A stretch of 32,034 bases of DNA, from the NCBI GenBank assembly GCA_003543135.1, contig DPJG01000028.1:1-32034 (forward strand). The letters run 5' to 3'. The position numbers were made by a program, and so were the translations under genes. Positions 4,955 through 30,300 of the stretch are shown here, in pieces; positions within the stretch are counted from its first letter, which is position 1; each line of letters opens with the position of its first letter. Under the pieces are notes generated by a model. It ran no database searches. It was not told the DNA's origin and saw only the letters and a program-made list of their open reading frames with translations. Source of the stretch: Rheinheimera sp. (GTDB lineage: Bacteria > Pseudomonadota > Gammaproteobacteria > Enterobacterales > Alteromonadaceae).

Positions 4955-5140
4955 CTGACATCACCGTCTTGTTTATGACTGCGCCGTTACTGGCGGTGTC
5001 ATGCCTTTTTTATAAATTCAGTGCGCTAACACACAATGCTGCCATCGCCCCAACTTTGCTCACCTATACTGCTTTTATGCAGATAAGCATGCCGTGCTGC
5101 ATAGGAGGCAATTCCGATCTTTTGCCAGCGGAGGCACTGT

Positions 5141-6391
5141 ATGAAAACGAAAAAACGAATTGTGATTTGTTGTGACGGCACCTGGAACGAACCGGATCAA
5201 AACCCAACCAATGTGATTAAAATTGCCCATCATCTGGCGCCGGTCGACAAAGATGGCATCCAGCAGGTGGTGTTTTATGATCAGGGTGTGGGCACAGGTG
5301 GCGCAGTTGATAAGTTTATTGGTGGAGCCACCGGCAAGGGCATCGAAAAAAACGTGCTGGATGGCTACCGTTTTATTATTCATAACTACGATCCACAGGA
5401 TGAAATTTACCTTTTTGGTTTTAGCCGCGGTGCTTATACCGCCCGGGCTATTGCCGGCATGATCAACGCCATAGGTCTGCTACCCAAAGATCATTGGGAA
5501 AAACTGCCACAGGCTTATCAGTATTACCGCACTGAACCTGCCAAAAGAAACACCAGACTGTATCAGGATAATCACAGACCCGATATTCAGATGATTGGTG
5601 TCTGGGACACAGTCGGTGCGCTGGGCGTTCCAACACCTGGCCTTCGGCAGTTGTCCAAATCGCTGGTGAGTTTTTTTGATACCGAAATCAGTCCGCTGGT
5701 GCGCCACGCATACCATGCGCTGGCGCTGGATGAAAAACGCGGCCCCTTTGCCCCCTCTATCTGGACCGGCGATTTAGCCGCCAATCAGGTGGTGGAGCAA
5801 TGCTGGTTTGCCGGTGTGCATTCAGATATCGGCGGTGGTTATGAAGATCACAGAGTGTCGGATTTGAGTCTGGTGTGGATGGTGGAAAAAGCCAGCCAGC
5901 TTGGGTTGGAATTTGATACTCAGGATCCGATATGGCAAGCCTCGGTGACACCCAGCGCACTGGCACCGCTGCATGACTCTTATGGCAAAGCGCACCAGTT
6001 GTTTGGCAAAGTGATGGACAGCCCTTATATCCGCCAAGTGCAAACGCCACCGGGTCAGGGCCATCTGATGCAGGTGCATGACTCGGTGTTTGAGCGCATG
6101 CAAGCCAGCAATTATCTGCCACAAAGTCTGAAACTGCCACCACAGCATCTGAACGGCAACCGCCGCCAGTTTGACCGTTTCCAAACCTTTGCCACTCAGG
6201 CCCGGCTGGCTCTGGGCGGGCAACAACACAACTGTACCCTGGAGAACTACAGCCCCGGCATGGGTGCTGCCATTAAAACCAACCTCCAACTGCAACTGAA
6301 TAGTCTGGTGGATTTGCTGGTTGGTAAACAACAACTCAAACTGCAATGTATCTGGGCCGCCGATAACAGATATGGGTTACGAAGGATATAA
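5141..6391 (+). CDS. DUF2235 (Tle1-like) alpha/beta hydrolase domain protein
   Basis: A 416-residue protein whose first about 260 residues form a DUF2235 domain, the fold of type VI secretion phospholipase effectors of the Tle1 group. Visible are the opening strand RIVICCDGTWNE, the nucleophile elbow GFSRGAYTAR with Ser95, the Asp156 element (VWDTVGALG) and the His227 element (GVHSDIGGGY), so the Ser-Asp-His triad appears complete. There is no signal peptide or membrane segment. The C-terminal about 150 residues are Gln/Leu-rich with no domain I recognise. Start ATG 5141 has GGAGG at 5129-5133. No VgrG, PAAR, immunity protein or other secretion gene is nearby, so a role as a housekeeping esterase or lipase is as likely as an effector role. 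Confidence 0.85.
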   Translation: MKTKKRIVICCDGTWNEPDQNPTNVIKIAHHLAPVDKDGIQQVVFYDQGVGTGGAVDKFIGGATGKGIEKNVLDGYRFIIHNYDPQDEIYLFGFSRGAYTARAIAGMINAIGLLPKDHWEKLPQAYQYYRTEPAKRNTRLYQDNHRPDIQMIGVWDTVGALGVPTPGLRQLSKSLVSFFDTEISPLVRHAYHALALDEKRGPFAPSIWTGDLAANQVVEQCWFAGVHSDIGGGYEDHRVSDLSLVWMVEKASQLGLEFDTQDPIWQASVTPSALAPLHDSYGKAHQLFGKVMDSPYIRQVQTPPGQGHLMQVHDSVFERMQASNYLPQSLKLPPQHLNGNRRQFDRFQTFATQARLALGGQQHNCTLENYSPGMGAAIKTNLQLQLNSLVDLLVGKQQLKLQCIWAADNRYGLRRI

Positions 6392-10717: not shown

Positions 10718-11815
10718 TTGAGCGGTATTTCCCTGGAGCAACAGCTGACGGCTGAGCTAAATCGAATGGATTTTTCCAAAATCCTGATTGAGCAACCCTA
10801 CGAATACAAATCAATTTTTCTCAATCGCATTCAACCCGATAAAAAAAATGCCCGATTTTTTCCTGCGGTAATCATACCGGATCAGCTCGCGTACCAAATT
10901 GCCTATAAAAGTTTGTCCAAAGCACAACTGATTGAACGGCTTGATTGTCGTGACACTGTTGTGATTGGCAAGTCCTGCATCGTCAACTGCTTTCACCGCA
11001 ATAGCATTGAGTGGAAGAAAGCCAACGCGACTATTGCCTCAATTATCGAGCTTGCTGCAAACGTATCAGTTTCTGAATTAATTCAGGTTCCAACCATTTA
11101 TCCGGTAGAAAATAATAACTATCAGTTGCTAACCGGCCATCGTCGTTTTTTTGCTTTGGTTTATACCAATGGTATCGATGGTGCAGCACATTTTAAAGTA
11201 TACAACCACAAGCCGTCGCTGCCCCGCACCAAACAGTTTCAGGAAAACGCCAGTCGGGAAGACCTTCCTCAATACGGTAAATTGCAGGCTTTTCAGGAAG
11301 CAATGCAGGAACTGGAAACATTAAGCTCTATGCGGCAACGGACGGAAGGCAAAGGCCTGACCGTGCGGGAGACCTCGAGCTTGCTGGGTATTTCGATGGG
11401 AGCTTTTGACAACTACAATGTACTGACACGTTATCCGGCAGTGATTGAGGCCTATCAAAACGGTAATTCCATTCCTTTTATTGCGATGAAAAAAATCGTT
11501 GTCACCGAAGAGCAGCGCTATCGCAAAAAGATAGGTCAGACAGTTCTTAATATTGAACATAAAAGAGCTGTGAACAAAAGGATTCAGGATGTCCTCAACA
11601 ATATCAAACCAACCGTCAGCCCGGAAAAGAAAAAACGTTATCGTTTAGGGACAGTTGAGTCACCTGAATTAATGAAGTTTATCCTTTCAGAAAATCTGCT
11701 GGCACTTAACTGTGGGGTAGATTGGGAACACATCGACTGGAATCATCCAAAAGCTGTTAATGAAGCTTTTGAACAAGTCATTCATTTTATTCAGGAAAAC
11801 TCACTAATAAAGTGA
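10718..11815 (+). CDS. Orphan ParB/RepB-family DNA-binding protein
   Basis: A 365-residue protein with the ParB-family core. A ParB-type CTPase-like domain covers roughly residues 75-185, with TGHRRFFAL (139-147) in the position of the GERR arginine-rich box and QFQENASREDLPQYGKL (173-189) as the ENxxRxDL box. A helix-turn-helix follows (about 213-236, LTVRETSSLLGISMGAFDNYNVLTRYP). The N-terminal 75 residues and Lys-rich C-terminus are less familiar. The TTG start at 10718 has CTGGAG ending 8 bases upstream. No ParA is nearby, so this is unlikely to be the chromosome partition pair. A nucleoid-binding or transcription-regulator role, or a relic of an integrative element, is possible. It is lower in GC than the mod genes. 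Confidence 0.78.
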   Translation: MSGISLEQQLTAELNRMDFSKILIEQPYEYKSIFLNRIQPDKKNARFFPAVIIPDQLAYQIAYKSLSKAQLIERLDCRDTVVIGKSCIVNCFHRNSIEWKKANATIASIIELAANVSVSELIQVPTIYPVENNNYQLLTGHRRFFALVYTNGIDGAAHFKVYNHKPSLPRTKQFQENASREDLPQYGKLQAFQEAMQELETLSSMRQRTEGKGLTVRETSSLLGISMGAFDNYNVLTRYPAVIEAYQNGNSIPFIAMKKIVVTEEQRYRKKIGQTVLNIEHKRAVNKRIQDVLNNIKPTVSPEKKKRYRLGTVESPELMKFILSENLLALNCGVDWEHIDWNHPKAVNEAFEQVIHFIQENSLIK

Positions 11816-12260: not shown

Positions 12261-13310
12261 ATGCTGCACAAACTAGATCTAGATGTCTTAGCAGGACAAT
12301 TCACAAAAGAGAATGCTAGTCACGGTCATGACAAGCTGAAAAAATATAGTGTTTCTTCATTTTCTAATCATCCTTATAGTTTGTATAAAGTTGAAGCCAA
12401 CGATAGTTCAGTCAGCGTTGAAACTATTTTTGCTGAAAGGGATTATTGGTTGAAGCAATTGTCGATCAGAGGCGGCATATTATTTCGTGGGTTTAACCTG
12501 GGAAATATCGCTGCAGTTGAACAATTCGCGAACCATTTTATGACTTCTGTTTTTCGTGAAAATACCGAACATACGCCGCTTGTTGGCAGCACTTTTGTGC
12601 AACAACCTGTTGGATATGCCAGTAATAGTTTCCTGCTTTGGCACAATGAAAATACCTTCAACCAGCGTTGGCCAACCAAAGCAATTTTTGCCTGTCACAC
12701 TGCAGCTAAAGTGGGCGGCGAGACCCCGGTGGCCGACAGCCGTGAGATATACCAGCAGCTGGATAAGCAGGTGCGGGAGGAGTTCGAACGCAAAGGTGTT
12801 CGTTACTGCAGACGTTACCAGGCGGAGAATGGCATCGGGCTGGGGTGGAAAACCATTTTTAATACCAGCAGCAAGCGTGTGATCGAATCCATCTGTTTGC
12901 GCGAAGGTATGCAATATCGCTGGTCGTCTGATGACAGTTTAATTACTTTGGCAGACAGACCTGCCGTATATCAGGTCAGGGAAACTGGCGATATGTGCTG
13001 GATTAACCAGGCCCAGCACTGGCATTTTTCCTGCCTGGCCCCTGAGCTACAACACACTTTACAAAAGCTGTGCAGCCATGCCGATGAATACCCTCGCAAC
13101 TGTTATTTTGCAGACGGTAGCCCAATCCCTGACAGCTACATGGCACACATTCTTGACGTCTACCGGCAACATCAGTTTGCATTTCAATGGCAGGCAGGCG
13201 ACCTGCTGCTACTGGACAACAGACTCAAAGCACATGCCAGAAACCCTTATCAGGGAGAACGCCAGTTATTAGTGTGCTTCGGTGATATGGCAAGCTTTGC
13301 ACCAGAGTGA
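12261..13310 (+). CDS. SyrP/TauD-like Fe(II)/2-oxoglutarate dioxygenase
   Basis: A 349-residue TauD/TfdA-family protein resembling the NRPS-associated SyrP group, whose members hydroxylate amino acids (for example beta-hydroxylation of Asp) free or on carrier proteins. The facial triad is visible: His128 and Glu130 in LLWHNENTF (HxE rather than HxD) and His325 in LDNRLKAHARNPY. Arg334 (GERQLL) is the expected 2-oxoglutarate anchor. ILFRGF (73-78) and GGETPVADSREIY (152-164) are family hallmarks. It is the only plus-strand gene of the peptide locus and converges on the cytochrome b561 gene with a 41-base gap. A palindrome and AT-rich promoter region precede it, so it may be controlled separately. 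Which residue it modifies is not known. Confidence 0.85.
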   Translation: MLHKLDLDVLAGQFTKENASHGHDKLKKYSVSSFSNHPYSLYKVEANDSSVSVETIFAERDYWLKQLSIRGGILFRGFNLGNIAAVEQFANHFMTSVFRENTEHTPLVGSTFVQQPVGYASNSFLLWHNENTFNQRWPTKAIFACHTAAKVGGETPVADSREIYQQLDKQVREEFERKGVRYCRRYQAENGIGLGWKTIFNTSSKRVIESICLREGMQYRWSSDDSLITLADRPAVYQVRETGDMCWINQAQHWHFSCLAPELQHTLQKLCSHADEYPRNCYFADGSPIPDSYMAHILDVYRQHQFAFQWQAGDLLLLDNRLKAHARNPYQGERQLLVCFGDMASFAPE

Positions 13311-13941: not shown

Positions 13942-14919
13942 TCACCAGTCTAACCATTTGGCTGGCACATTTGGCAAAGGACTGGCCGTTTTGCGGTGTA
14001 AAAAGCGGATAAATGCTTCTTTCCAGCCAGGCATAGGACGAAGGAAATCAACCATCAGAATCACCCGGGTTTCTTCAGTCTTATTCCATGCGGAGTGTGG
14101 GTAAAAATCGTCGAAAATCATTACCTTACCATTCTCCCAACTGAGCTTTTGATCTTCGAGCTGCAAGCAGACGTCTCCTGTTGGAATAATAATCCCCAGG
14201 TGCATTCGCAAAAAAGTACGCGAATTGGCCTTATGGTAACCAATGACAGTGCCGGGCCTGAGAATACTCAAGTCCGCGTTCAGCATCGAGGGAACAGACT
14301 CAACCAGTTTTGCAGTACAGGGCAGCAGCTTTTTGGCCTGCACCGTGGCCTGACCTTTTTCTGCAACCAGCACCGAATGCCAGTTCGCAAGTTTGTCCGG
14401 CCCGAGTGGAATTTCACTGACATCAACGTGATCAAAGATATTTCTGACTTCGTTACAGATGGCTGGCCATTCTTTCTCAAAGGCTAAACTCCAGGGAAAC
14501 TCAGCTGGCAAAAATGTCCGCCTGTGGATTTGCGGTAAACTTTGTTCAAGATTAAATAACGCTTTCAGAATAATCCGGAACAATAAACCAGGTCTGTGAC
14601 GATTAGGGATCTGCTGGCCATGTTGCGCTGCGAGCAGTGTCTCCAGCATTTTCCTGGCCGCCTCATCTAATGCGCCGAGTTCAGCAATAAACATTCCTTC
14701 GCCCACATCGATGACAGACGCAGAAAAAATAGGAAAGAAAGGGCGCCAGAAGATACCCTGCGAACCGGGTTGTGGCAGCTTTGCGTCTGTTTTTACAACA
14801 AACTGACGTTCAGAAAGCTCAGAAATCGTACATTCAATTTCTGTTTCGCCATTTCCTGTCCAGAATAGTTGTTTGATATCGTTGACTGCTACAGGAAACA
14901 GATTATTTTTCATTTTCAT
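13942..14919 (-). CDS. Aspartyl/asparaginyl beta-hydroxylase-like protein with extra N-terminal domain
   Basis: A 325-residue protein whose C-terminal half (about 205-300) is an Asp/Asn beta-hydroxylase (PF05118-type) cupin domain. LRPGTVIGYHKAN carries His229, LRMHLGIIIP the substrate-side Arg238 and His240, then W..GKVMIFDDFYPHSAWNKT with His275 and RVILMVDFLRP with Arg285. Iron ligation by the two His (229, 275) fits the AspH type. The first about 110 residues form a separate beta-rich domain, vaguely PilZ-like, that I cannot name. The longest frame begins at 14985, but that ATG lies in the T tail of the preceding terminator and has no Shine-Dalgarno sequence. I prefer ATG 14919, preceded by GGGTGGATG. 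The likely role is hydroxylation of a peptide or amino acid from the NRPS. Confidence 0.8.
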   Translation of the reverse strand: MKMKNNLFPVAVNDIKQLFWTGNGETEIECTISELSERQFVVKTDAKLPQPGSQGIFWRPFFPIFSASVIDVGEGMFIAELGALDEAARKMLETLLAAQHGQQIPNRHRPGLLFRIILKALFNLEQSLPQIHRRTFLPAEFPWSLAFEKEWPAICNEVRNIFDHVDVSEIPLGPDKLANWHSVLVAEKGQATVQAKKLLPCTAKLVESVPSMLNADLSILRPGTVIGYHKANSRTFLRMHLGIIIPTGDVCLQLEDQKLSWENGKVMIFDDFYPHSAWNKTEETRVILMVDFLRPMPGWKEAFIRFLHRKTASPLPNVPAKWLDW

Positions 14920-14985
14920 TTCATACATCCACCCGCTGAACTGACTATATCGCACCCAGTAAAAATCAATCTCAGGAATACACAT

Positions 14986-15030: not shown

Positions 15031-17472
15031 TTATGCAGCAATCCCCTTCAAGCCATTGACTATACTGTTCTTTTTAATTGCTCTCATCGAAATCGAGCTG
15101 GACAATATCAGAACAGCGAATACAGCAACGATCGTTATGGCATACATATACATAGAACTAATTGAGATATAAACACTCAACAAATCGTAGTAAAAATAGA
15201 GACAGACAATAATAAAGATAGTCCCTAATGAGGCACCAATCATCAGTATTGAAATATTTTCCCGCACGGTTTCATTAAAGATGTTGTTATATTTCGCTCC
15301 AATAGCCATTTTAATATTAAATTCTGTTGTACGTGATTTAACGCCATAGCTAATGATGCCAAACAAGCCCAGAAAGGCCAGCAACAAGGTAAATATGGCA
15401 AGACTTCCCGCAACTGTCAGCGTTACCAGGTGCGTAAAATTAGCCCTGTCCACATCTGCCTGTAATGAAGAAAAATTCGTCAGCGCAAACTGGTTGTTTG
15501 TATCACGCATGAGAGCCGTCACTTGTTCCCTTGTAACTACAGTACCTGGTTTCAGCTTCAGCATCAGCCACAATGCCGAACCACCGTTCGGGACATAAAA
15601 CCGTGGCGGAATTTCTGCTTTTGATGGCACGACCAGATCTTCAACAACGCCGATGATGGTAGCGGGTGGAATAGAATCGATTGCCAGGGTTTTCCCAATG
15701 ACACTGGTTATGTCGCCATGTCCCAATTGCTCTGCAAAAGTAGCGCTGACCATTGCAACGTTGGTGCGGCTCTGCACATCCTTTAACGCGAAACCCTGGC
15801 CTGCCAGCAGGCGTTGGCCAACAACATCCAGATAATTGTGGTCGACATTACGATGGAAGGGGTAATAACGCTTGCCATCTCCACTGTAAGTCAGCGCAAA
15901 CTGATAAATATCTTCCAGTGGTGAGCGGGCGAAGGTCACTGCCTCAACCTCTGGCAATGCGGCGAGTTTGTCACGAAATTCCGTCACTTTAGGGGCATAG
16001 GTATCCCAACCCTGCCAATCCAGAGTGGCGATCCTGAATTCCAGTCGTAACACATTTGTGCTGTCGAAGCCGACGTGTCGTTGCAGGGTTGTGGCCGCGT
16101 TTTTAATCAGGCTGGCACTGCAGAAAATCAGCACCACAGCGACAGAAATCTGCGAAACCAGCAACGCATTCCGGACTCCGGACGAAATTTGTACGCCCAC
16201 ACCTTTACCACTGCTTTTCAGCGACTGGCTGAGCTGCCGGTAATTCACAATACGGATCGACAATAATGAAATAATAAAAGCCAGCAGAACTGCAACCAAC
16301 AATGCCGAGCATAAGGTCATCCAGTCAAAGGATATCTCATGCGCGCGGGCCAGCTGAGTGCTGAAAAACCGCTGGATCAAGCCAAAGCCCAATAAAGCTA
16401 TCAAAATAGCAACAGCACTGGATGCCAGCATCAACACTAAGGTTTCACTGAACATTTGTAGCCACAAATGTTTTTTCTTCGCTCCCAGAGTGGCCGCAAT
16501 AGCCAGTTGTTTATGTTTTGACACCACCCGCGAGATAAAAAGATTGGTGATGTTACTGGTCGCAATCAACAGCAATCCCAAGCCGCCCGCCAGCAAAAAT
16601 ATAACTGTGGTCATATTACCGGCCACCAATTTTGACCGTAACGGCGTGATCTCGATATCGGCAGACCAACCGACAAAGTGCTGATTATCAATGGTCATTT
16701 TGCGAAACATTTCATTCGCCATAGCACTGAGCACAACACTGAGCTGGCCGGTACTGGCCGCTGGCGTTTTGATCAGATAAAACAACTTCCCTTCAACATT
16801 TCGCCAGTCTTCTTTGTATTCAGAATTATTAAAGTCCCAGGGCAACCAAAGTTGTGTAGTCAGGCCCACTTCCGCAAGTTGTGGTGCAACGAAGTCTGCC
16901 TGAATAACACCAATCACCGGATGACTGACTCCATTCACAACCAGTTTTTGACCAAGAATGTCTTCCCTTAAACTAAATTGCTCTGCCCATACCTGGTATG
17001 TGATCACTGCACCCGGCACGCGTTGCCCGAGTTCTGCAGGCGCAAACCATTGCCCTTTTGCCATAGGTATCCCCAGGATATCCGCAGTGCTTGCCGTGGT
17101 ATAAACAGTCGCAAGGTTAGGTTGCAGAGGTTCAGAGGTCAGGACTTCTTTGGAAAAAAACAACATAGACTGCGCTTTGACACCGATATCTTTGGCACTC
17201 TGAATATTGCGATACAAAGCTTCTGCTGCAGGGTAGAGAAAAAATGAGGTTTCTGCTTCACCACTCTGATTTATCCGCTGGTAATCCACCACAAAAAGCT
17301 CGTCCTGCTGCGGATAACTTAAGGGTTTTAACAGCATGTAGAACCCCAAAGTCAGTACAACAAGAAACACACCAATAGTGATACCCATCGTTACTACAAC
17401 ACCGGCAAAAAAAGACTTGTCAGCCAACGCCGCCTGAACGGATCTTTTGATCAGATAACGTAAGTTATTCAT
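15031..17472 (-). CDS. MacB-type ABC transporter permease, two FtsX domains
   Basis: An 813-residue permease without its own ATPase. One helix (about 22-47) is followed by a periplasmic MacB_PCD-like domain, three helices with an FtsX signature (about 290-410; ATSNITNLFISRVVSKHKQLAIAATLGA), a further helix (about 440-460), a second periplasmic domain (about 465-680) and three C-terminal FtsX helices (about 683-800; SRTTEFNIKMAIGA). This duplicated form differs from E. coli MacB, where ATPase and one FtsX unit are fused. Together with the ATPase and HlyD protein just upstream it should form a periplasm-spanning exporter, as MacAB-like pumps do for lipopeptides and siderophores. ATG 17472 has AAAGGA 6 bases before it; it starts 9 bases after the ATPase stop. 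An outer-membrane TolC partner is not in the window. Confidence 0.9.
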   Translation of the reverse strand: MNNLRYLIKRSVQAALADKSFFAGVVVTMGITIGVFLVVLTLGFYMLLKPLSYPQQDELFVVDYQRINQSGEAETSFFLYPAAEALYRNIQSAKDIGVKAQSMLFFSKEVLTSEPLQPNLATVYTTASTADILGIPMAKGQWFAPAELGQRVPGAVITYQVWAEQFSLREDILGQKLVVNGVSHPVIGVIQADFVAPQLAEVGLTTQLWLPWDFNNSEYKEDWRNVEGKLFYLIKTPAASTGQLSVVLSAMANEMFRKMTIDNQHFVGWSADIEITPLRSKLVAGNMTTVIFLLAGGLGLLLIATSNITNLFISRVVSKHKQLAIAATLGAKKKHLWLQMFSETLVLMLASSAVAILIALLGFGLIQRFFSTQLARAHEISFDWMTLCSALLVAVLLAFIISLLSIRIVNYRQLSQSLKSSGKGVGVQISSGVRNALLVSQISVAVVLIFCSASLIKNAATTLQRHVGFDSTNVLRLEFRIATLDWQGWDTYAPKVTEFRDKLAALPEVEAVTFARSPLEDIYQFALTYSGDGKRYYPFHRNVDHNYLDVVGQRLLAGQGFALKDVQSRTNVAMVSATFAEQLGHGDITSVIGKTLAIDSIPPATIIGVVEDLVVPSKAEIPPRFYVPNGGSALWLMLKLKPGTVVTREQVTALMRDTNNQFALTNFSSLQADVDRANFTHLVTLTVAGSLAIFTLLLAFLGLFGIISYGVKSRTTEFNIKMAIGAKYNNIFNETVRENISILMIGASLGTIFIIVCLYFYYDLLSVYISISSMYMYAITIVAVFAVLILSSSISMRAIKKNSIVNGLKGIAA

Positions 17473-17481
17473 ACATATCCT

Positions 17482-18162
17482 TTACGCAACAATTTGGCCA
17501 TCTATCATTTGAATCTTCTTCTTGGTGAAGTCCGCATACCGGCTATCGTGAGTCACCATAAAAATGGTACTTCCTGCGTCATTCAGTTCCCCCAGCAGGC
17601 TCATTACCGCATCACCACTTTTTGAATCAAGGTTACCGGTCGGTTCGTCCGCCAGAATCACGGATGGTTTGGAAATAAGCGCTCTTGCAATGGCAACACG
17701 TTGTTGTTGTCCACCTGATAACTGGTTAGGTTTATGGTTCATCCGGTGTTCAATACCCACTCTGGCGAGGCATTGGCGAACTTGTTCTTCGACCTGACTG
17801 GCATGGAAACGCTGTGCACTGTAACGAAGTGGCAAGGCCACATTATCAAACACTGAAAGCTCATCTATCAGGTTGAAAGACTGGAAAATAAAACCAAATT
17901 TTTGATTACGAATCTCAGCAGCACGATCGGATACAAGGTTACTGACATTGATACCATCCACTTTATATTCGCCACTACTGGGTGTATCTAACAGTCCGAG
18001 TAAAGACAACAATGTAGATTTTCCACATCCCGACGGACCAGATAATGATACAAAATCACCGTCGTATACTTTCAGACTTACATTTTTCAGGGCATGGGTT
18101 TCAACTTCATCAGTTTCGAATATTTTCCCAATACCATTCATTTCTATGGTCACTCTTTTCAT
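17482..18162 (-). CDS. MacB/LolD-type ABC transporter ATP-binding protein
   Basis: A 226-residue cytoplasmic ATPase with every motif in place: Walker A SGPSGCGKST (41-50), Q-loop FIFQSFNLIDELSVFDNV (91-108), signature LSGGQQQR (148-155), Walker B VILADEPTGNLDS (168-180) and switch His in MVTHD. The NLIDELSV and DEPTGNLDSKSG patterns are those of the MacB/LolD/FtsE group. It drives the FtsX-type permease encoded 9 bases downstream and lies 26 bases after the adaptor gene, so adaptor, ATPase and permease form one transcription unit. ATG 18162 follows CAGGGTG at good spacing. Confidence 0.94.
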   Translation of the reverse strand: MKRVTIEMNGIGKIFETDEVETHALKNVSLKVYDGDFVSLSGPSGCGKSTLLSLLGLLDTPSSGEYKVDGINVSNLVSDRAAEIRNQKFGFIFQSFNLIDELSVFDNVALPLRYSAQRFHASQVEEQVRQCLARVGIEHRMNHKPNQLSGGQQQRVAIARALISKPSVILADEPTGNLDSKSGDAVMSLLGELNDAGSTIFMVTHDSRYADFTKKKIQMIDGQIVA

Positions 18163-18188: not shown

Positions 18189-19442
18189 TTATTCAAGCAC
18201 GATACTATTTTCAGAAGTCATCAGGTTTGATAAATCGGAAATAATAAACTTTTGTCCAACCTTGGTTCCGGATTTAATTTCAATATACTGGTTCGCGGTT
18301 TCACCCATTGTCAGTTGCACTAATTCCGCTTTTTTAGAATCATCGTCATCAATCCTGAACAATTTCAGCACCGTGTTTTCCGTACTTTTGGCAGGGCGTT
18401 CAATATACATAGCATCAGCCAAACTGCCGATAATGATTCTGCTTTCAACATTCTGCTCCGCTTTCAGACTCAGCGGCAATTCTCCGGGTAAGTCAATTTC
18501 CAGTTCAACCGTGTTGTCGACAACCACAGGATCGATCCGGCTGACTACCCCTTCAATCTGATCCTGGCGGTTATTAATCACCGCCTTTTGTCCAATTTGA
18601 ATCCGCTGCGCTTTATCCTGTGGGATCTTGATAAAGGCTTCCAGCGAACCCTCACTGCCAATAGTGGCAACCTCTTGTCCTATCACCAGACTCTGTCCCA
18701 AACCAATGGCTGATTTCAGCAACATACCTGTCAGCTCCGCCTTAATCTCCAACTGATCCACTTTGTGCTCAATCAGTTTTACTGTGCCTTCCTGCTGCCG
18801 GACCAAATCAGTTTTGATACTGATCATCTCTGCGTGAATTCGTTTAAGCCTTTCATTCTTCTCCCGTAAAAACACCAGTTTTGCTTTCAGACGTTCTGCT
18901 TCAACCTGGCTTTCGACATGGGTCACTTTGGAAATAATTCCCTTTTCCACCAGGGAAGATTCAGCTTGAACGATATAAGAGATTTTTTCGTAATTTGCCT
19001 GAGTATCAGAAACTTCAGTCGCTTCGTTGAGCATTGCCAGCTCATGATCAGCGATGGTTTGCCGTAAATCCGCCTGCACTTTTGACAGCTCCTGCCGGGC
19101 ATTTTGCAGCTCTTGTCTGACATCAGGGTTTTCAAGACGGGCAATCACATCTCCGGCCTGCACCCGGGCTCCGGGCTTCACCAGTATCTCTTTCACAATA
19201 GAATTACTTGGTGCTGTTAACAGTCTGATATCGTCTGATCTGACAACACCAAAACCGTCGACCGAAACCTCTAAATCGCCTTGGCGCACTTCGGCAATCA
19301 CCAGGCTTTTACGTTCCAGACTGATTTCCTGACTGGTCAGTCTGGCGTAAAGCATCCAGAGGCCAAGTATCAGCAGCAACCCCAGCCCCCACTTGACCGG
19401 TACACTTTTATCTTTGGTTACAACCTGCTTTTTTATATCCAC
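18189..19442 (-). CDS. HlyD/MacA-family periplasmic adaptor protein
   Basis: A 417-residue membrane fusion protein: short cytoplasmic N-terminus, one membrane anchor (about 19-35, WGLGLLLILGLWMLYA), first half of a lipoyl-like barrel (IVKEILVKPGARVQAGDVIARLENPDV, about 80-110), and a long coiled-coil hairpin (about 112-220, rich in Glu, Lys and Leu). The second lipoyl half and beta-barrel follow (SLVIGQEVATIGSEGSLEAFIKIP and after). It would link the inner-membrane ATPase/permease to a TolC-like channel. The start is GTG at 19442 with AAAGG about 8 bases upstream; an overlapping ATG two bases away is out of frame. The gap to the preceding TDO-like gene is 76 bases. The exported cargo is presumably the NRPS peptide. 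Confidence 0.9.
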   Translation of the reverse strand: MDIKKQVVTKDKSVPVKWGLGLLLILGLWMLYARLTSQEISLERKSLVIAEVRQGDLEVSVDGFGVVRSDDIRLLTAPSNSIVKEILVKPGARVQAGDVIARLENPDVRQELQNARQELSKVQADLRQTIADHELAMLNEATEVSDTQANYEKISYIVQAESSLVEKGIISKVTHVESQVEAERLKAKLVFLREKNERLKRIHAEMISIKTDLVRQQEGTVKLIEHKVDQLEIKAELTGMLLKSAIGLGQSLVIGQEVATIGSEGSLEAFIKIPQDKAQRIQIGQKAVINNRQDQIEGVVSRIDPVVVDNTVELEIDLPGELPLSLKAEQNVESRIIIGSLADAMYIERPAKSTENTVLKLFRIDDDDSKKAELVQLTMGETANQYIEIKSGTKVGQKFIISDLSNLMTSENSIVLE

Positions 19443-19518: not shown

Positions 19519-21390
19519 TTATGGCCCCGGTTGAAACCGTAAATAACTCAGGTCAACTGTACCGGCTGCTGCTGAAAACAATTTGTGAATCAAAGTGATG
19601 GTGTCCTCAAGGCTGCCAGGTGCCATAGCCGGTGATGAAAACAACATCAGACCGAGGCGCCGTCCGGCCACAGGACCATCAGCCGCCATGGCTGTGCGGC
19701 TGCCCGGACCAGAAAAATACGAGGCCATCACTCCTGCCTGATCGCGCAACACCAATTCATTGGCCTGACAGATCACCTGACGGGATTTGCCGATACCACT
19801 GTAAACCTCAGCTTCGATACTGACGTCAACTAACACATCACCATCAATCCGGTCGATATCAAACACACCCGCCAGCACACCGCGATAGAACTCAAGATGC
19901 AGTAACAGGCGCGGAACCAGAGGAACTGTCGGTGCAGGCAACCCATGCTGCATCTGTTTGCGTAATGGAAAAGCAGCCTGTTTACTGCTGAAGAACCTCT
20001 GATAATCATCAAGGTTATGCTCTATCAGATCGGCATGTTCCAGCATCGACTGGCGGATATCTTCGGTATTGGTTTGTAAAGCGAACTGAAGTTTCTGCAG
20101 GTCAACGTCGGTACACTGTATCCAAACCAGAGTCAGTCCCTCAAATAGCTGACGAGCCCTTGTGGATAACCGAACTTCCGGTACTTCTCTGCTATGACGC
20201 CGCATCTCAGTCATATTGTTCCTTAAATTCGATTTCAGATAGCCGATACCCAGCGGACCTTCGGCTCCGAAGTTTTTAGGCAACATTTTTATTGCAATCG
20301 CCAGGTGTCTGGCTTTCCAGAACTGGAATTGATGCAACAGACGCTGACTGAAAAATGCCAGTTCCGGACAATCCCGGCAGTTCAGCATTGTCTGATAGAG
20401 TTGCCTTAAAGTCGGCATGGCAGTGTCTTTTAGCATGGACTTGTCCCTCAGTTCTGCTATCTGCAGCACAACGCCCAGTTTGTCCTGTTGAATACCGGTC
20501 AGGAGTCGCTCCAACCATTGATACTTTTCAGACTGTATAGCACCGGCATTACCGGTATCTACCCGAAAACCCTGATAAAAGTTTTCCACAGCCAGAGTAT
20601 CCATCACACTGAACAAACGGCTTAGTACGTCCATCAACACCGTCAGTTGCCGGAAGATATCAGCAGCCCTTTGCAGTTCTCCCTGCTGATAAAAAGCTAA
20701 CCCGTCGTGAACACCTTCTCCGACCGCAAAAAAGATACATTCCGTTAGTTGCACCATGCGCAGAAACATATATTCATCATGATAAATACCACCGGGAAGC
20801 CCCGTCAGCATGACTAAAGTCGTTAATGCTGCATCAGCATCACGGAAGTACTCAATATCATGTGGATAGCCATGGTCCGGAAACCCCTGGTCACGATGGA
20901 CGGAAAACGAATTTTCCGTTTCCATCAGGCTTTGTTTCAGCTCTTTTAACAGTTGCAGTCTGTCAGCGACAAGCTCGGGCCTATATCCCTTTTTGGTGTA
21001 ACCAATTGAGGTGTATTTGTTGAATAATTCCATTTCATAAATAAACCAATCGTTAACCAACGCTGCCAGAGCATACCATACATTTTTATTCTTTCTCCAA
21101 AAATCTCCATCGGTGCCGGCATCAAGATAACAATCAAAAACCGGCGAATAAGTGTATGAAGCATAATTGTGTTTTTCTCCCAGAGCGGTGAAGTTTTCAC
21201 ACCATAAAAACCGCTCCCAGAGACCACAGTCCGGGCTAAAATCGGGTTGCCGCGGATCAAGCCGGAAAGGGGCCATCATCGCTGCAATTTTTTCCCGCCA
21301 GTGCGCGGATACATGATTACGGCCATGCATTAATGCCTCCCGTATATAACCCTGAATATCAAAATCCAGTTGCTCAGGCGCTGTATTCAT
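19519..21390 (-). CDS. Tryptophan-dioxygenase-like haem protein fused to a B3/B4 domain
   Basis: A 623-residue protein. Residues about 185-395 show the all-helical TDO/IDO pattern: HDEYMFLRMVQLTE (204-217) at the FIxxHQxxEL position, VENFYQGFRVDTGNAGAIQSEKY (268-290) at the F..FR...SGFQS position with the carboxylate-binding Arg276 kept, and FWKARH (357-362) followed by FGAEGPLGIGYL at the proximal-His GTGGSxG element, so His362 is the likely haem ligand. The distal His is Val213. Residues about 490-615 resemble the B3/B4 domain of PheT (FDIDRIDGDVLV, NELVLRDQAGVMASYF, GSRTAM), known for editing mischarged aminoacyl groups. ATG 21390 has GGGAGG 5 bases upstream and overlaps the NRPS end by 17 bases, implying translational coupling. 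Residues 1-180 are unassigned. Reaction unknown; PrnB-like or hydroxylating haem enzymes of this superfamily are alternatives. Confidence 0.72.
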   Translation of the reverse strand: MNTAPEQLDFDIQGYIREALMHGRNHVSAHWREKIAAMMAPFRLDPRQPDFSPDCGLWERFLWCENFTALGEKHNYASYTYSPVFDCYLDAGTDGDFWRKNKNVWYALAALVNDWFIYEMELFNKYTSIGYTKKGYRPELVADRLQLLKELKQSLMETENSFSVHRDQGFPDHGYPHDIEYFRDADAALTTLVMLTGLPGGIYHDEYMFLRMVQLTECIFFAVGEGVHDGLAFYQQGELQRAADIFRQLTVLMDVLSRLFSVMDTLAVENFYQGFRVDTGNAGAIQSEKYQWLERLLTGIQQDKLGVVLQIAELRDKSMLKDTAMPTLRQLYQTMLNCRDCPELAFFSQRLLHQFQFWKARHLAIAIKMLPKNFGAEGPLGIGYLKSNLRNNMTEMRRHSREVPEVRLSTRARQLFEGLTLVWIQCTDVDLQKLQFALQTNTEDIRQSMLEHADLIEHNLDDYQRFFSSKQAAFPLRKQMQHGLPAPTVPLVPRLLLHLEFYRGVLAGVFDIDRIDGDVLVDVSIEAEVYSGIGKSRQVICQANELVLRDQAGVMASYFSGPGSRTAMAADGPVAGRRLGLMLFSSPAMAPGSLEDTITLIHKLFSAAAGTVDLSYLRFQPGP

Positions 21391-24300
21391 TGACGCCTCC
21401 CGCATGGCATAAGTCTGGGGTCTGTCCCTGGTGGGTTGTGCTGTTTTGTCCATTTGCGGCATCTCTGTCAGCCTGATGTGGCACAGGCAGTCGCAAATAT
21501 TCGGCCACAGACGTCGCCAGTTCCGCAGACTCAATCATGGTCTGATGCGATTGCTGTATTGGTAAAATTCTGACACTGCCACTGCTGTACAAGTCCCAGT
21601 TCAGGTTTTGATTAAAGCCATCTGCCGGTGGCGTCAGTTCAGCTCTGAACAGCACTAAATCCAGCGCTGACTGGCGAATGCAGTGGCCTCTTTTCAACCT
21701 GTCCAGCGTGATAAAATGCTGTAAATAGCGACAGGTCATTTCTTCTGTGACTTGTGCAATATAATGGTCAGGAAACTGCAGACGCAGCTGTTTGCTCAAA
21801 GAGCTCAGCGCTGCCGGAACATCCGTCGCATCGAGCTGATTCCAGTCCAGTTCCGGCTGTAACAACAGAATTTCCTGCAAGGCCAACTGTATAGGGGCAT
21901 ACCAGGCCTGGCTTGGTACTTCATATTCAGCCATAGTCGCGTAGCTATCTAACAGCAGAACCCGGACCTGATATCCCTGCTGAACCAGTTGGCAGGCCGC
22001 TTCATAAGCGAGGACACCGCCCGACGAATAGCCTAATAAAGTGACGGGCCCCTCAGTCTGGTATCGCAGTATCAATTGTACATAACGGTTGACCAGCGCC
22101 TTAAAATCAGCAAAAAACTGCGGTTCGTAGATCAGCGGCGAATGTAACCCGACCAACTGATATTGTCCGGACAACGCAGCCGCCAAACGCCCATAACAAT
22201 GGGCTGTGCCGGCTCCGGGATTAAAACAGAAGATAGTTCCCGAACCAGGTGTGGTGCTCAATTGCAGCATGGTTTCCGGCAACTCACTGGTCAAACTTTC
22301 CTGTTCCCGCAGCCGTAACTGATTGGCAAATTCCTGTAACTGCGGATGCAAAAACACATCACCCAGTGTGGCCTGCAACCCTAACTGACTGCGCACTTTC
22401 GCTATCAACCTGGTGGCGAGCAGCGAATGCCCGCCCAGGTCAAAGAAATTGGCTTTCATGCCAAGCTGAGGATTGGCAAAAATCTGTTGCCAGATCGCAC
22501 ACAACGAAGCCTCAAATGCGTCTGCCGGTAAGATCATTTCGGGTTCACTATGTTGCAACTGCGGCGCTGGCAATGCTTTACGGTCAACTTTGTTATTCGC
22601 AGTTACAGGCAAAGCGGACAGAATTTCGAACGCCTGTGGCACCATGTAATGCGGTAAGACGCTGCGCAGCCACTCGCGGCATTGCTCGATAAATTCCAGC
22701 CGGCTCGCTATGACCTGTTCGTTGTGCAGCACCAGATAAGCAACCAGCACTTTGTCACCTGAAGCTGTCTGCTGCACATCAACCACAGCCTGACCAATGA
22801 ACGGGTGCGATTTCAGCGTATGCTCTATCTCACCCAGCTCCACCCTAAAACCACGGATCTTGATCTGGTTATCCCGACGGCCGCGGAATTCAATCAGGCC
22901 ATCACTGCGATACCGGCCCAGATCTCCGGTCCGGTACAGTCGCTGCTTTAACTGCGGATGCCACAAGAACTGCCGCCCGGTCAACTCGCTGTCACGATAA
23001 TATTCGCGGGCAACGCCCAGCCCCCCGATAAAAAGCTCACCTGTCACTTGTGGCGGACAAGGTTGCAGCATGTCATTTAAGATGAAGAATGACTGTCCTG
23101 ACATAGGCCGGCCATAAGGGACACTGGATAACGCTGAGGTATCCTGTTCAATAGGGTAATGAATGGACCAGATAGAGCCCTCGGTGGCCCCGCCAAGACT
23201 GTATAACCGACTACCGGGAAATGACTGCCAGAGCCTTGCCGGTAACTGTGGATCAATCCAATCCCCACTCATCATGACCGCTTTAAAACAAATAGCAGAA
23301 CTGCGCCTTTGCTCTTCCAGTTGCTCTACCAACAGCGCTGCCGAAACCGGCACTGTGTTCCAGACAGTAACAGCAAAACGCTCGGTGAGTTCCAGCCAGT
23401 GCTGCGGATTTTTCGCCAATTCCGGCTGCGGGAACACAACAGTGCCGCCTGCTGCCAGCATCCCAAAATAGTCATACACCGACAGGTCAAAACTGAAAGC
23501 AGAAACCGCCAGCACTTTATCCGCCGCAGTTATGCCGTACTGCCGGTTGATATCAAGCAAGGTATTCACGGCCGCGCCATGTTCAATGGCCACTCCCTTG
23601 GGTTTGCCGGTGGAGCCTGAGGTAAAGATGACATAAGCCAGTGATGCAGGGGGTTGTACCGGCTTATAGCCGCTGGCCTGCGCCAGAAGTTCAGCACGGC
23701 TCTGCTCCGCTGCTGCTGGCTGCGGATAACAGACACTGAGTCCTTCTGCTGACAAAGCGGTCAGGCTGCTTGTGGTGATCAGCAACTGCACACCAGCCTG
23801 ACGCAGGATCTGCTCACATCTTGATGCGGGCCAATCGGTTTCCAGCGGCAGATAGGCTGCACCGACATATTGAACCGCCAGTGCCGCCACCAGTTGTAAC
23901 GGACTCTTTGGCAACCGAATCGCAATCAGCGGTTCAGTACTGACGGGAAGCAGCGGCTGTAACTGCGCGGCCAGCTGCACAACCTGACTGTATAATTGCA
24001 AATAAGTCAGTGTATGACCCGCAGCATCTATTGTCGCAATGTGGTCAGGCGCTGCTATCAGTTGCTGCATAAACAGCTCGTGCATACAAAGATCAGCCTG
24101 CCCCGGCCATTTGCTGTGATTCCAGTCTACAGTCACTTGTTGCATCAAGGCTGGCGGCAACATGTTGATCGCATACACGTTGAGTTCCGGGTCCGCCAGT
24201 ATGCCGTCCAGTAAGCATTCAAAGGCCGAGGCCATCGTTTGCACTGATTCCGGATTAAACAGGTCGGTGTTAAATTCCCAATTCAGCGTCAGGGCGCCAG

Positions 24301-27300
24301 CTTCTTCGTTAACGTGTAAGGTTAAATCAAACTTTGCAGTGGTTGTCGCATAATGCGGCGCTTCAGTGATCAGCCCCGGCAATGCAACAGCAGGCGGAAC
24401 CGCCGGATTAAATACCAGCATGATCTGAAACAACGGCGTGTAACTCTGTGTTCTTTCCGGTTTTAACCGCTCGACGACCAGTTCAAATGGTGTGTGTTGA
24501 TGCTCATAGGCAGCCAGCAGCATGGCTTTGCTTTGCGCTAACAGCGAACTGAATCCGGGCTTCCCGGTGAGATCGTTACGCAATACCAGCGTATTAACAA
24601 AGAAACCGATAAGTTGCTCAAGTTGCGGCTGTTCCCGATTAGACACAGGCGTTCCCATCGAAATATCCTGTTCATTGCTGAAGCGGGCAAGCAAAATGGC
24701 AAACAATGTCTGAATACCCATAAATAAAGTGGCATCGTGCCTGTGACACAGTGTCGCCAGACGCGCTGTCAGCTCTGCCGGGATCTGATGACAATACGAC
24801 GCACCAGCATAACTTTGCTGGAGCGGTCTGGGCCGGTCAATCGGCAGTTGGTGGACCTGAGGCAGACCATGGAGTTGCTGCTCCCAGTATTGCAACTGCT
24901 GTTCAAGCACATCCCCACTTAACCATTGGCGTTGCCAGTATGCGTAGTCAGCATACTGCACCGGCAATTCGGGCAGTTCAGCCACCAGACCTGCCTGCCT
25001 TGCACGGTACAACAGACTCAACTCATGCATCAGCAGGCCCACGGAATGGCCATCTGCAGCAATGTGGTGCATATTGATCAGCAACACTGCACTTTCCGCG
25101 CTGTCGCGCAGCAGATGTACCCGCAGCAAATAATCCTGGCTTAAGATAAATGGCTGCGCTAACAGCTGTTGGATTTGCACCTGTATTGTTGTTGCGGATT
25201 GTGCAGAGATATCCAGACTTTGCACCCGGAACCGGCTGGCTGGCTGGAGTTGTTGATACACCTCTCCCTGGTCATCACAAAGAAAAAGAGTCCGCAATGC
25301 TTCATGGCGCTGCACAATAGTGACGAAGGCATACTCCAGAGCATCACTATCCACCTGACCGCTTAATTTGAATATCGCAGGCATATTGTAGTGAATGCCA
25401 CCCCCATCAATCTGATCGAGCATCCATAAGCGATGCTGTGCATAAGACAAAGGCAGGCGCTGCGAGCGGGATACGTGATTGATCTTCACCTGAGCTTTGA
25501 CTCCGGTGATTTGGTCGAGCTGCGCCGCCAGCTTTGACAGCACCGGCGACTCAAATAACATTTTCAGGGGGATATGGATTTGCAGGACCTGCTGCAATCT
25601 CGCCAGCACCCGGGTCAATAATAAAGAGTGACCACCCAGCCGGAAGAAATGATCGGTCCGGCTGACCTGCGGCAATGACAGCACCTCCTGCCAGACCGCA
25701 GCAATAACTCTTTCTCCTTGTGTCTGCGGCGCTTCGAACCTCTGAACAGATTGCATGCTGTCCGGATGTGGTAAGGCATGCCGGTCTATTTTTCCGTTGG
25801 GATTGATCGGCAAAGCCGGCAATACCATGAACAGCTCCGGCACCATATATTCGGGCAAGGTAGCAGCCAGCTGCCGCTGCGCTTGCTGTGTCACCACCTC
25901 TGCTGATAACTCCGCATATTCGGACGCAACGGTCAGATAAGCCACCAGTTGCTGACCTCCAGACGGTGCCCTGATGGCAACAACCACCGCTTGCCCGACA
26001 AGCGGCATCGCCATCAGGCAGCTTTCTATTTCACCCGGTTCAATCCGGAAACCACGCACTTTCACCTGATGATCGGCCCGGCCGAGATACTCAATAGCGC
26101 CGTGTTCCAGCCAGCGGACTAAGTCGCCAGTGCGATACAGCCTGTCTCCGGTTCCTGTTGCCAAAGGATTGGCAATAAAGCGCTCCGCCGTAAGTTCCGG
26201 TCGGTTCAGATAACCACGGGCCACCCCCACACCACCGATGTAGAGTTCGCCAATAACCCCAACCGGGACCAGTTGTAACTGCGCATCCAGTACATAACAC
26301 TGTGCATTGGCAACCGGTTTACCAATACTGTTCGGATACAACAAATCAACGTCGGTATAACAGGCATCCACCGTGACTTCTGTTGGTCCGTACACATTTA
26401 ATAATCGTGGTGGCTGCTGATGCCTGTTGAAGTAATCCTGAATATCCTGGCTATTGAGCTTGTCGCCCCCGACACTAATGTGGCGGATCCCCTGCAGTTC
26501 ACCATTGCATGCCTGCACCACATATTCATGAAAAAATGCCGGTGTAAGATTTAATACATCAACCTGATACTGCCGGCACATGGCTGTAAAGGCCTGAGGA
26601 CTTTCAAACAATTGTTGTTTAAAAATCACCAGCGTTGCCCCACTGCATAAGGTCGGAAATATTTCTTCGACTGACTTGTCAAAACTCACCGAAGACAACT
26701 GCAGACAGCGGACCCCTGCAGCAAGCCCATATTCCCGGCTGATATAAGTCACATGGTTGGTCAGACTACGATGCTCAATCATCACACCTTTTGGCCGACC
26801 GGTAGAGCCCGATGTATAGATCACATAAGCAAGCTGATTTGAACTTGTCGGCTTTTGTGCATCAACCCCGGTACATGGAGCACTCTGAAGCTCCCGCTGT
26901 ACCACTGGATCATCCAGTACCAGTTGCACCTCAGCATCAGTTCTGCCGCTGGTGGATTGTTGCACCAGAATCACGGCTAAACCGGCATCCTCCTGCATCA
27001 GAGACAAACGTTGTTTTGGGTATCCTGCATCCAGCGGCACGTAAGCTGCTCCTGCTTTGAGCACGGCCAGCATCGCGATAATCACCAGTTCAGAACGTTC
27101 AAGGCACAAACCAATCAGCTGTTCCGGCGCGACTTGATATTGTGCGCGCAAATAATGCGAAAGTTGATTGGCGCGTCGATCCAGTTCAGCGTAGCTGAGC
27201 GTCACGCCATCGCAGACCACAGCCGGCTGCTCCGGCTGCAACGCGGCCCGTGCCGCAAAAAGCTGATGAACACATTGCTGCTGCGGATAATCAGACCGGG

Positions 27301-30300
27301 TGTTGTTCCAGATAAATTGCTGTTGTGCCCTCTCTTGGGTGGACAACAGACAGAATCCGGCCGGCCGCTCCTCTGGCTGTGCCAATGCATCGAGCATCCC
27401 GGCCAGTGCATGTTGCAGGTAACCCAGCAGACGCTCTGCCGGATATCCGGCGTGGGTTTGTAATGTCAGCTGAAAACTCTGGCCATCGTCATCAACAGAC
27501 AATTCCACCGGATAGTGACTGTGCAGGCTGAAATCAACCGGCTCAGGCAATTGGCCACTGACCGCAGGCTGTGTTTTTTCGGTATGGCGGTAATTGAGCA
27601 GAGTGTTAAATAAAGGCAATGGCGCTTCGATCGGACTCGACCGCTGCGCGACCACCAGCGGCACCTGAACATAGTTCAGCAACTGCTGCAAGCCGGAAGA
27701 AACCTGTTGTACCAATGACCTGGCCGTCGCGCCGCCAGTGTTGACCCTGATTGGCAGGGTATTGACCAACACCCCGAGCATCTGACCCGCCTGAGGTTTG
27801 TGATGGACCTGTCCGGACAAAACAGTACCAAACACAACGTCTTTGTCACCGGCACAGGCTGCAACCACCAGTGCCCAGGCACAGTGCATCAGCACTGCGG
27901 GGCTCACATGCAAAAGGGCCGCACTGTTTCGCAAACCGGCAGCCAGCTCGTCTGCCAATCTGATTTGTTGCCTTATGCTCTGCCCCGCCGGATCCGTTGT
28001 TATGTTGAACACCAGAGTGGCGTTATCTTTATCACCCAGCATGCGCCGGAAGAACAGACTGGCTGCATCCTGATTGGCAGACTGACGCACAGAGGCGATA
28101 AAATCGCGATACTGCCGGACAGCTGGCAACAGCTCATCCTGGCCGTTTTGCAGCAGCTGTAATTCTTCACAGACCAGCCGGATCCCCATCTGATCGGTCA
28201 CAAGATGATGGTACCTGAGTAGTAGGGTGCATTGCGAAACTGAAGGCTGGCTGACAATGTGCAAAGACAGTAACGGGGCCTGGGTTAAAGTCATCCGGCA
28301 GGGCTGCTGCATCAGCGCTGCAGTGTAATGCTCCGGATTTTGTGTTTCGCTTAATTTATGCCAATGCACGGGAATTCCGGCCTCACGGAAGACCACCTGA
28401 ACCGGTCTTGACAGGCCTTGCCAGAACACCGCTGTTCTGAGCACATCATGGCGTGTGATCACCAGCTGCAAATGCTCAATAAACCGGTTCACAGCAGCAT
28501 GATCCGGCAATGTGAATGTTGTTTGCAGTAAATAAGGATCGGCGGTTTCACTGGCGATATGCAGAAATAAAATCCCCTCCTGCAGCGGTCCTAAGTCATA
28601 GATATCCTGAATACGTGACACGCCACCCGGGATCTGGCTGAGCAGTTGGTCAATATCCTGCTGAGAAAGGTCTGTCAGAGGCAGCATTTCTGGTGTCACA
28701 GATTCAGTATTCACATCCAGCAGATTGGCGGGTACAGACTCTGACTCCTGCGCATCACTCTGCAGCTGCAAACTGGCTGCAAGCCCGGCTATCGTGGGGT
28801 ATGCAAAAAGTTGCAACGGACTGATCCGGATGCCATGCAAGCCCAACTGACTGACCACCTGAACCGCAATAATGGAATGCCCGCCCATGGCAAAAAAGTT
28901 ATCGTGCACGCCAATGTGCGACAGACCCAGACAATGCTGCCAGCACTTCGCAATCACCTGCTCCAGCGGTGTGACAGGCGCGACAAAAGGAGCAACCGAA
29001 GTGCCAAAATCTGGTGCCGGCAATTGTTTTCGATCGATTTTGCCGTTGGCAGTCAGCGGAAGCTCTGACAATTGCACAAAGAGTGCCGGCACCATATAGG
29101 CTGGCAGAACAGCCAGCAGCATGTCGCTGAGCACCTTGTGGAGCTCATTGCCGGCTACTGCAGGTTTTGCCGGCACGACATAAGCGACCAGTATTGGCTC
29201 TTGCTGAGGGTCACGTACCGCCACAACAACAGCCTCAGTCACCAGCTCTGACTGCTGCAACTGATACTCAATCTCGCCGGGTTCAATCCGGTAACCCCTG
29301 ATTTTCAGTTGCTGATCGGCGCGTCCCATAATCTGCAGCCGCCCATCAGGTAGCCAACGGGCCAAATCATGGGTGCGGAACAGCTTTCCGCCCGCTGAAG
29401 ACTGACAGATCTGCGGCATCACAGGCGCAACAAACATTTTGTTGCTCAGCGCCGGCTGATTGAGATAACCAGGGCTGACCCCCTGACCACCTATCCATAA
29501 CTCGCCAATGACTCCGGCAGGTAACAACTGACCTTTCGCAGAAAGGATATACAATTCGGTGTGGGTAACAGGACGGCCAACATGAATAGGTTCTGCCGGC
29601 TGCATCCTGCCACAGACGGACCAGACACAAGTTTCTGTGGGCCCGTACATATTCCAAAGTACTGCACCACCATGACAAAGTTTGTCGACCAAAGTCTGCG
29701 GCAATGCTTCTCCACCACACAGGCTGGTAAAGCCGGGGTCTGGCTGCCAGCCATCGGCCAGTAACATCTTCCAGCTGGCTGGTGTTGCCTGCATTATGGT
29801 GATTTGATGTTGCTGAAGCAGGAGGCGTAAGGCCCTGGCGTCCCGGCTTTGTGCAGAATTGGCGATCACAAGCCGGGCTCCGGCGAGCAAAGGTAAAAAC
29901 AGTTCCAGCACATGAATATCAAAGCTAATGGATGTTACGGCCAATAGGCGGTCACCGGACTTCAGGCCAGGCGCAGCCAGCATACCGGCCAGAAAATTCC
30001 GGACATTACGCTGCAACAGCAGTACACCTTTGGGCACGCCGGTGGTCCCGGAGGTATAAAGCACATAGGCCGGTAACTCGGGATCATCAGCCTCTGCGCT
30101 CTGGCTCTGCTCAGGCGCACAACTCTGGTGCATGACTGCAAGCACCTCAGGGTCATCAAGCCGGATTTGACCTATGCCGGCCTGGTCTATCCCGCTGTCG
30201 CTGACGCCCAATGTGGCCTGACAATCCTGCAATATCAGCTTTTGCCGTTCCGGCGGGCATAACGGGTCCAGTGGCACATAAGCAGCACCGGCGCGCCAGA

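Follow-up and report, generated by a model that had tools for sequence, protein, structure and literature searches.

What might a protein do that joins a TDO-type haem-oxygenase domain to a relative of the B3/4 tRNA-editing domains and is made together with an NRPS? The question is posed by a gene of Rheinheimera sp.; the window analysed here, a stretch of 32,034 nucleotides, is one entire contig (DPJG01000028.1) of a 3.99 Mb genome. The original prediction placed a 623-residue frame at 19519..21390 and read it as a TDO-superfamily domain followed by a B3/B4-type domain that could recognise or proofread an aminoacyl group for the NRPS pathway. Coordinates and length stand and the strand is to be stated as minus, a plus-strand reading of the same interval, full of stops, being ruled out. 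All of the motifs quoted at that time (Arg276, FWKARH with His362, GAEGPLGIGYL, FDIDRIDG, NELVLRDQAGVMAS and GSRTAM) are found in the translation. The presence of putative TDO-type and B3/4-type parts in a single frame is confirmed, and the earlier interpretation of the protein as a whole is partly supported. The gene and its predicted parts are as follows.

19519..21390, minus strand: HDAO-B3/4 fusion gene, 623 residues, ATG start (open frame; a 98% identical protein occurs in Rheinheimera sp. 4Y26)
20839..21390, minus strand: residues 1-184, an N-terminal extension (Pfam and NCBIfam list no family for it)
20206..20838, minus strand: predicted TDO/HDAO core, residues 185-395 (Pfam, NCBIfam, PDB, BLASTP, tree, profile and HMM matches)
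19522..20190, minus strand: B3/4-related C-terminal region, residues about 401-623 (Pfam, pairwise and profile comparisons)
19693..19872, minus strand: best-supported B3/4 stretch, residues 507-566 (B3/4 profile scores against shuffles)

Genomic context

The fusion gene starts inside the end of the NRPS gene, with an overlap of 17 nt (21374-21390), and GGGAGG, a ribosome site, lies just 5' of its ATG. The coupling to the NRPS that had been proposed is thus borne out by the sequence as an overlap of the two genes. The neighbouring genes are as follows.

21374..32034, minus strand: last NRPS, with three C, three A and three carrier domains and a TE; its 5' end lies beyond the contig
18189..19442, minus strand: HlyD-type periplasmic adaptor
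17482..18162, minus strand: export ABC ATPase; best models DarD, LolD and MacB, matched under their cut-offs
15031..17472, minus strand: ADOP-type permease, matched under the model cut-off
13942..14985, minus strand: Asp/Asn beta-hydroxylase-type oxygenase (PF05118)
12261..13310, plus strand (opposite to the fusion gene): TauD-type Fe/2OG oxygenase

A cytochrome b561 gene also lies downstream of the fusion gene on the same strand, and a 365-residue frame at 10718-11815 (+) is ParB-like by eye but unmatched in Pfam at E 0.01.

Condensation-domain matches number ten in this genome and twelve in Rheinheimera sp. 4Y26, on four contigs in each. All four NRPS contigs of the present genome break off within an NRPS frame, and we infer that together with the window they would form one cluster. 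The stretch L057:5542-13964, upstream of an NRPS start at the contig end, encodes SbnA and SbnB (2,3-diaminopropionate), a stand-alone A domain, a penicillin amidase and a cyclic-peptide exporter, a gene set that we take to resemble pyoverdine-type export and deacylation. Motifs in another NRPS frame (L056:3-4907) follow the order C-A-T-C-T; the stand-alone A domain might act in trans on the carrier of this frame that has no A domain of its own. A 480-residue frame among NRPS genes (L055:3376-4815) resembles an ATP-grasp ligase by eye; Pfam gives no match to it at 1e-5.

Nine A-domain codes could be read from the NRPS contigs by motif anchoring. Judged by code tables, those of the window are presumably Gly-like, unassigned (DKENSGVVD) and Cys-like, and the other contigs include what we take to be Asn-like and Ser-like codes. 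None of the nine looks to us like a code for Trp, Tyr or Phe, a count that covers the recovered parts of the NRPSs, since the missing parts may hold other modules. The codes thus lend no support to an aromatic residue as the substrate.

The predicted haem-oxygenase core

Similarity searches place residues ~185-395 in the TDO/HDAO superfamily. The NCBIfam model trp_2_3_diox matches the protein at E=1.3e-9 and 37.9 bits, below its equivalog cut-off of 390.7 bits, and Pfam Trp_dioxygenase matches at E=5.7e-6, under the curated cut-off. TDO entries of the PDB match at E=7.5e-8 in two stretches (201-306 and 321-389). An HMM built from three actinomycete TDO-like proteins, with the window protein excluded, finds the frame at E=1.4e-15, and a profile that combines the window protein with its four actinomycete relatives reaches TDO at E=2.7e-20 over profile positions 203-397. 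Structure models of the whole protein (two-row alignment, mean pLDDT 33.4) and of the C-terminal region (three-row alignment, pLDDT 38.5) are too low in confidence for the fold to be read.

As described in an excerpt of PMC11904535, MarE has a histidyl haem, a catalytic His, a carboxylate-binding Arg and a Trp197/His201 pair. Alignment assigns the following counterparts.

20779..20781, minus strand: His204, counterpart of the TDO/MarE catalytic His (role from the same excerpt of PMC11904535)
20563..20565, minus strand: Arg276, counterpart of the substrate-carboxylate Arg (role from the same excerpt)
20305..20319, minus strand: W358-K-A-R-H362, Trp and axial haem His (MarE Trp197/His201, same excerpt)

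The alignment holds 14 sequences, the 12 others being three actinomycete TDO-like proteins, seven canonical-type TDOs and two short actinomycete partners. Arg276 is conserved in all 12 and His204 in ten. Trp358 and His362 are conserved in 11; the exception is the TDO from the same genome, which is cut before that part of the alignment and at full length has both the Trp and the axial His. Similarity and aligned residues (His204, Arg276, Trp358 and His362) together uphold the claimed TDO-superfamily domain and the presence of its key residues, and we infer that the protein would bind haem and oxygenate an amino-acid substrate.

Two features depart from TDO in the alignment: Ala376 replaces the Thr of the GTGG(S) loop, and the lid loop reads NAGA in place of the PSSG type. 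The former may mean that Trp is bound differently or that the protein acts on another substrate. A second, canonical-looking TDO gene lies elsewhere in the genome, so the fusion copy is probably not for Trp breakdown. An ordinary TDO is ruled out by the scores (37.9 against 390.7 bits) and by Ala376. The same two changes would also suit a dead haem domain, or a sensory one that controls the pathway through redox or gas sensing. However, His204, Arg276 and the axial pair are retained, and the TDO-like part is under strong purifying selection (dN/dS 0.05), and we regard a dead or sensory domain as improbable.

Relatives in actinomycetes

A tblastn search of plasmid records detected relatives in Micromonospora, Nonomuraea and two Streptomyces (four records, none with query cover of at least 80%). 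These proteins (L015-L018) have 414-428 residues, with the TDO core in the second half, after about 185-200 residues. The best single BLASTP match is the Micromonospora protein (65.9 bits); in this plain comparison a canonical TDO (L004, 53.5 bits) outscores both Streptomyces proteins (51.6 and 50.1 bits). In a tree of 22 rows, with the TDO from the same genome left out, the window pair and the four actinomycete proteins form a clade with support of 98/98 on a long branch. In this tree the fusion protein thus sides with the TDO-like proteins from actinomycete clusters and not with ordinary TDO.

The kinship is seen in the core. The N-terminal 184 residues align only loosely with the actinomycete N-termini (hhalign E=0.26), and an HMM comparison of the two scores -0.3, a value reached by 105 of the 1,175 shuffles listed from 2,000 made; shared N-terminal homology is unsupported by either result. 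A six-frame HMM search of the four loci gave no B3/4 protein near the TDO-like genes at E<1.

Each of the four loci has a second, short TDO-like gene nearby (pairs at L015:12507-15702, L016:10712-12699, L017:12352-15687 and L018:10697-12699), and both short partners that were aligned carry Arg at the position of the catalytic His, being the two sequences in which His204 is not conserved. NRPS genes surround both Streptomyces loci (two of the four). The Micromonospora pair adjoins a nitric oxide synthase oxygenase and a globin, and the Nonomuraea pair lies close to a frame that is KynB-like by eye.

The C-terminal region

Pfam B3_4 matches the fusion protein with 14.7 bits (E=0.023), short of its gathering score of 29.3 bits, and what the sequence supports is a relation to the B3/4 family, not membership. 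The closest relative is a 233-residue solo B3/4 protein from another genome of the same family, itself matched by Pfam B3_4 at E=3e-20; it shares 39% identity with the window protein over 59 residues (E=1e-8 as a single comparison). With six B3/4 proteins in the profile the score is 31.0 bits, against 7.0 for the best shuffle listed. Removal of the closest relative lowers the score to 16.9 bits (best listed shuffle 7.9); three solo B3/4 proteins alone give 7.1 bits (5.7) and PheT alone 8.9 bits (8.4), all four tests having used 10,000 shuffles, of which 4,964-5,944 were listed. Two further window-free profiles give 30.0 and 14.8 bits, with best listed shuffles of 6.4 and 6.5 (5,000 made; 2,588 and 2,570 listed). 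Comparison of profiles with B3/4 follows the same course, with E=1.7e-6 and a probability of 90% when the closest relative is included and E=6.4e-4 and 28% when it is excluded. A strong signal is thus obtained when the closest relative takes part, and a thin one when it is left out. The C-terminal B3/4-related domain of the original prediction is borne out by the pairwise match and the six-protein profile. Support is strong for residues 507-566 and weaker outside them, where it rests on collinearity across ~401-623 when the region is aligned to four solo B3/4 proteins (one CtdA-type).

Other comparisons gave no such signal: the window C-terminus as a lone profile retrieved no B3/4 entry from the PDB, a TDO-like profile compared with a B3/4 profile gave a probability of 0.2%, and the BLASTP match to the CtdA-type protein (L075) is insignificant (E=2.2).

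The gene for the closest solo relative (L021:9996-10697, minus strand) overlaps trpB in a stretch that also holds trpA, trpF and trpC, dehydrogenases and DegT-type aminotransferases (one by scan and one by eye); it is possibly a second Trp-linked use of B3/4. In two other genomes of the class, solo B3/4 genes (L027 and L028) adjoin frames resembling mitochondrial-carrier proteins by eye.

Is the B3/4 part an editing enzyme?

According to an excerpt of PMC3275996, the PheRS residues near the ester are His261, Glu334, Asn250, Thr249 and Glu323. In our alignment, in which Glu323 is unmapped, Thr249, Asn250, His261 and Glu334 correspond to Leu496, Leu497, Gly508 and Phe584 of the window protein. 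Solo B3/4 proteins have a VVDxxN motif that is lost here, residues 492-497 reading V-P-R-L-L-L, so that Arg494 and Leu497 stand where all four solo proteins have Asp and Asn, in a weaker part of the B3/4 alignment; Phe584 faces Glu or Asp in three of the four. Two of the changes say little by themselves: the same excerpt gives Gly at the His261 position in archaeal and eukaryotic PheRS, as do all four aligned solo proteins, and the closest solo relative, too, has lost WN. Since the Asp and Asn of VVDxxN and the four mapped PheRS ester residues are replaced, hydrolysis by this domain is unlikely, with the qualification that the motif falls in the weaker part of the alignment. The suggestion that the B3/4 part proofreads is accordingly not borne out.

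These replacements bear on two further explanations. In one, the HDAO part makes a mischargeable oxidised amino acid and the fused B3/4 part, with its changed site, removes it from tRNA. Excerpts of two papers give precedents, the solo B3/4 protein CtdA deacylating canavanyl-tRNA and so clearing canavanine from tRNA-Arg (PMC10018355) and PheRS B3/B4 clearing Tyr and meta-Tyr (PMC11295145). The closest B3/4 relative adjoins trp genes, and the RD, GV and RT positions of the CtdA-type protein are retained in the window. Against this stand the loss of VVDxxN and the change of Thr249, Asn250, His261 and Glu334 to Leu, Leu, Gly and Phe, with the His-to-Gly change counted as not decisive, and we think it unlikely that the domain edits tRNA. 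If it did, the protein would be a single-chain make-and-guard enzyme, uniting production and self-protection. In the other, the target of the B3/4 part is an aminoacyl or peptidyl thioester on an NRPS carrier, which it hydrolyses or recognises in off-loading or to gate the oxygenase; B3/4 domains act on aminoacyl esters (excerpts of PMC10018355 and PMC11295145) and the fusion gene overlaps an NRPS gene that ends in a TE. The same polar residues are lost, however, and the NRPS already has that terminal TE, so that we give this proposal, too, a small chance of being correct.

Distribution and selection

Only two genomes, the present one and that of Rheinheimera sp. 4Y26, were found to carry the fusion. 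It occurs in one of 369 genomes of a class sample (the present one; the three other matches are TDO core only) and in two of 295 of a family sample, where eight other matches comprise seven TDO-only and one B3/4-only; one of the 15 other genomes of the genus listed there has it. Sampling by B3/4 profile gave the fusion in one of 229 genomes (again the present one), with six others, two solo B3/4 proteins and four assigned to PheT by frame length (789-802 residues). With the TDO-like profile it was found in one of 398 genomes of the phylum (the present one); 105 other genomes match, and among the matches listed none starts before profile position 172. These four samples overlap. An exact-peptide scan across 84,980 species, a method limited to close relatives, returned 4Y26 alone. 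Outside the phylum, the sensitive searches covered plasmid records. Scans of a viral sequence collection found nothing related to the fusion or to TDO; one contig there carries a CtdA-type gene, which as a query returned the same contig.

Between the two Rheinheimera copies dN/dS is 0.10 overall, 0.29 for residues 1-190, 0.05 for 191-395 and 0.08 for 396-623; both halves are under purifying selection. A chance frame fusion or a decaying gene, which occurrence in two genomes only might suggest, is thus hardly credible, as both copies are intact at 98% identity and under purifying selection and the gene overlaps that of the NRPS. The fusion is real, conserved and rare.

Proposed function

Our preferred explanation, held with moderate confidence, is a pathway-specific HDAO oxygenase carrying a repurposed, non-hydrolytic domain of B3/4 descent. 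It draws on both homologies, the retained haem-pocket residues, the loss of editing residues in the alignment, the gene overlap and the purifying selection, all as read from the sequence. A histidyl-haem oxygenase of the TDO/HDAO type would be produced alongside the cluster's last NRPS and would oxidise one amino acid, free or carrier-bound, for the NRPS peptide. The C-terminal domain would derive from a solo B3/4 tRNA-editing protein that lost its deacylase site, and may bind the aminoacyl end of the substrate, dock on the NRPS or hold an oligomer together.

The original prediction knew of no described enzyme of this build, and this holds for the literature searched. No description of a TDO-B3/4 fusion was found in openly licensed literature, where the term B3/4 is not searchable as written, and the available part of a review of aminoacyl-tRNA-dependent enzymes (PMC12945691) does not mention haem or dioxygenase. 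For paenidepsin, a PrnB-type enzyme beside an NRPS has been proposed to hydroxylate Trp (excerpt of PMC13036774). HDAO enzymes beside NRPSs having thus already been proposed, the new element is the B3/4 fusion; none of the other genomes and papers searched showed the combined architecture. It adds a new domain arrangement to a superfamily of haem oxygenases known for reactions from dioxygenation to hydroxylation, suggests recruitment of a tRNA-editing fold to peptide biosynthesis and draws attention to a set of long TDO-like proteins encoded in actinomycete clusters.

Comparison with known systems

The relation to the B3/B4 editing domain of PheRS beta is seen through Pfam B3_4 and mixed profiles, whereas the four mapped editing residues are all changed and the PheT-only profile scores 8.9 bits against 8.4 for the best listed shuffle. 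Solo B3/4 proteins, the CtdA-type L075 among them, are collinear with residues ~401-623, and RD..GV and RT of L075 are kept; in contrast to CtdA (PDB code 9f7e) and the solo proteins, the window protein is without VVDxxN, WN and Glu and is fused to an oxygenase. In this comparison 9f7e was aligned to L028 and the window was related to the CtdA type via L075, so called because its motifs match those of 9f7e.

With TDO (PDB codes 3bk9 and 2nw8) the protein shares the aligned core, the catalytic His, the carboxylate Arg and the axial His. It differs in its 184-residue N-terminal extension, Ala376, the NAGA lid loop and the C-terminal B3/4-related domain, and it scores under the Pfam and NCBIfam cut-offs. 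With MarE and PrnB (HDAO) it has in common the superfamily features reported for MarE in the excerpt cited above (a histidyl haem, predicted for the window protein, catalytic His and carboxylate Arg), although the profile matches are weak, at E=0.13-0.15 for two PDB chains named TDO, which may be MarE, and 0.69 for PrnB. The actinomycete TDO-like proteins are without a fused B3/4 domain and retain the GTG-loop Thr, but share with the window protein 26-29% core identity, the placement of the core, the motifs HDE-x-x-F-x-R, LFS and AIQS and the 98/98 clade.
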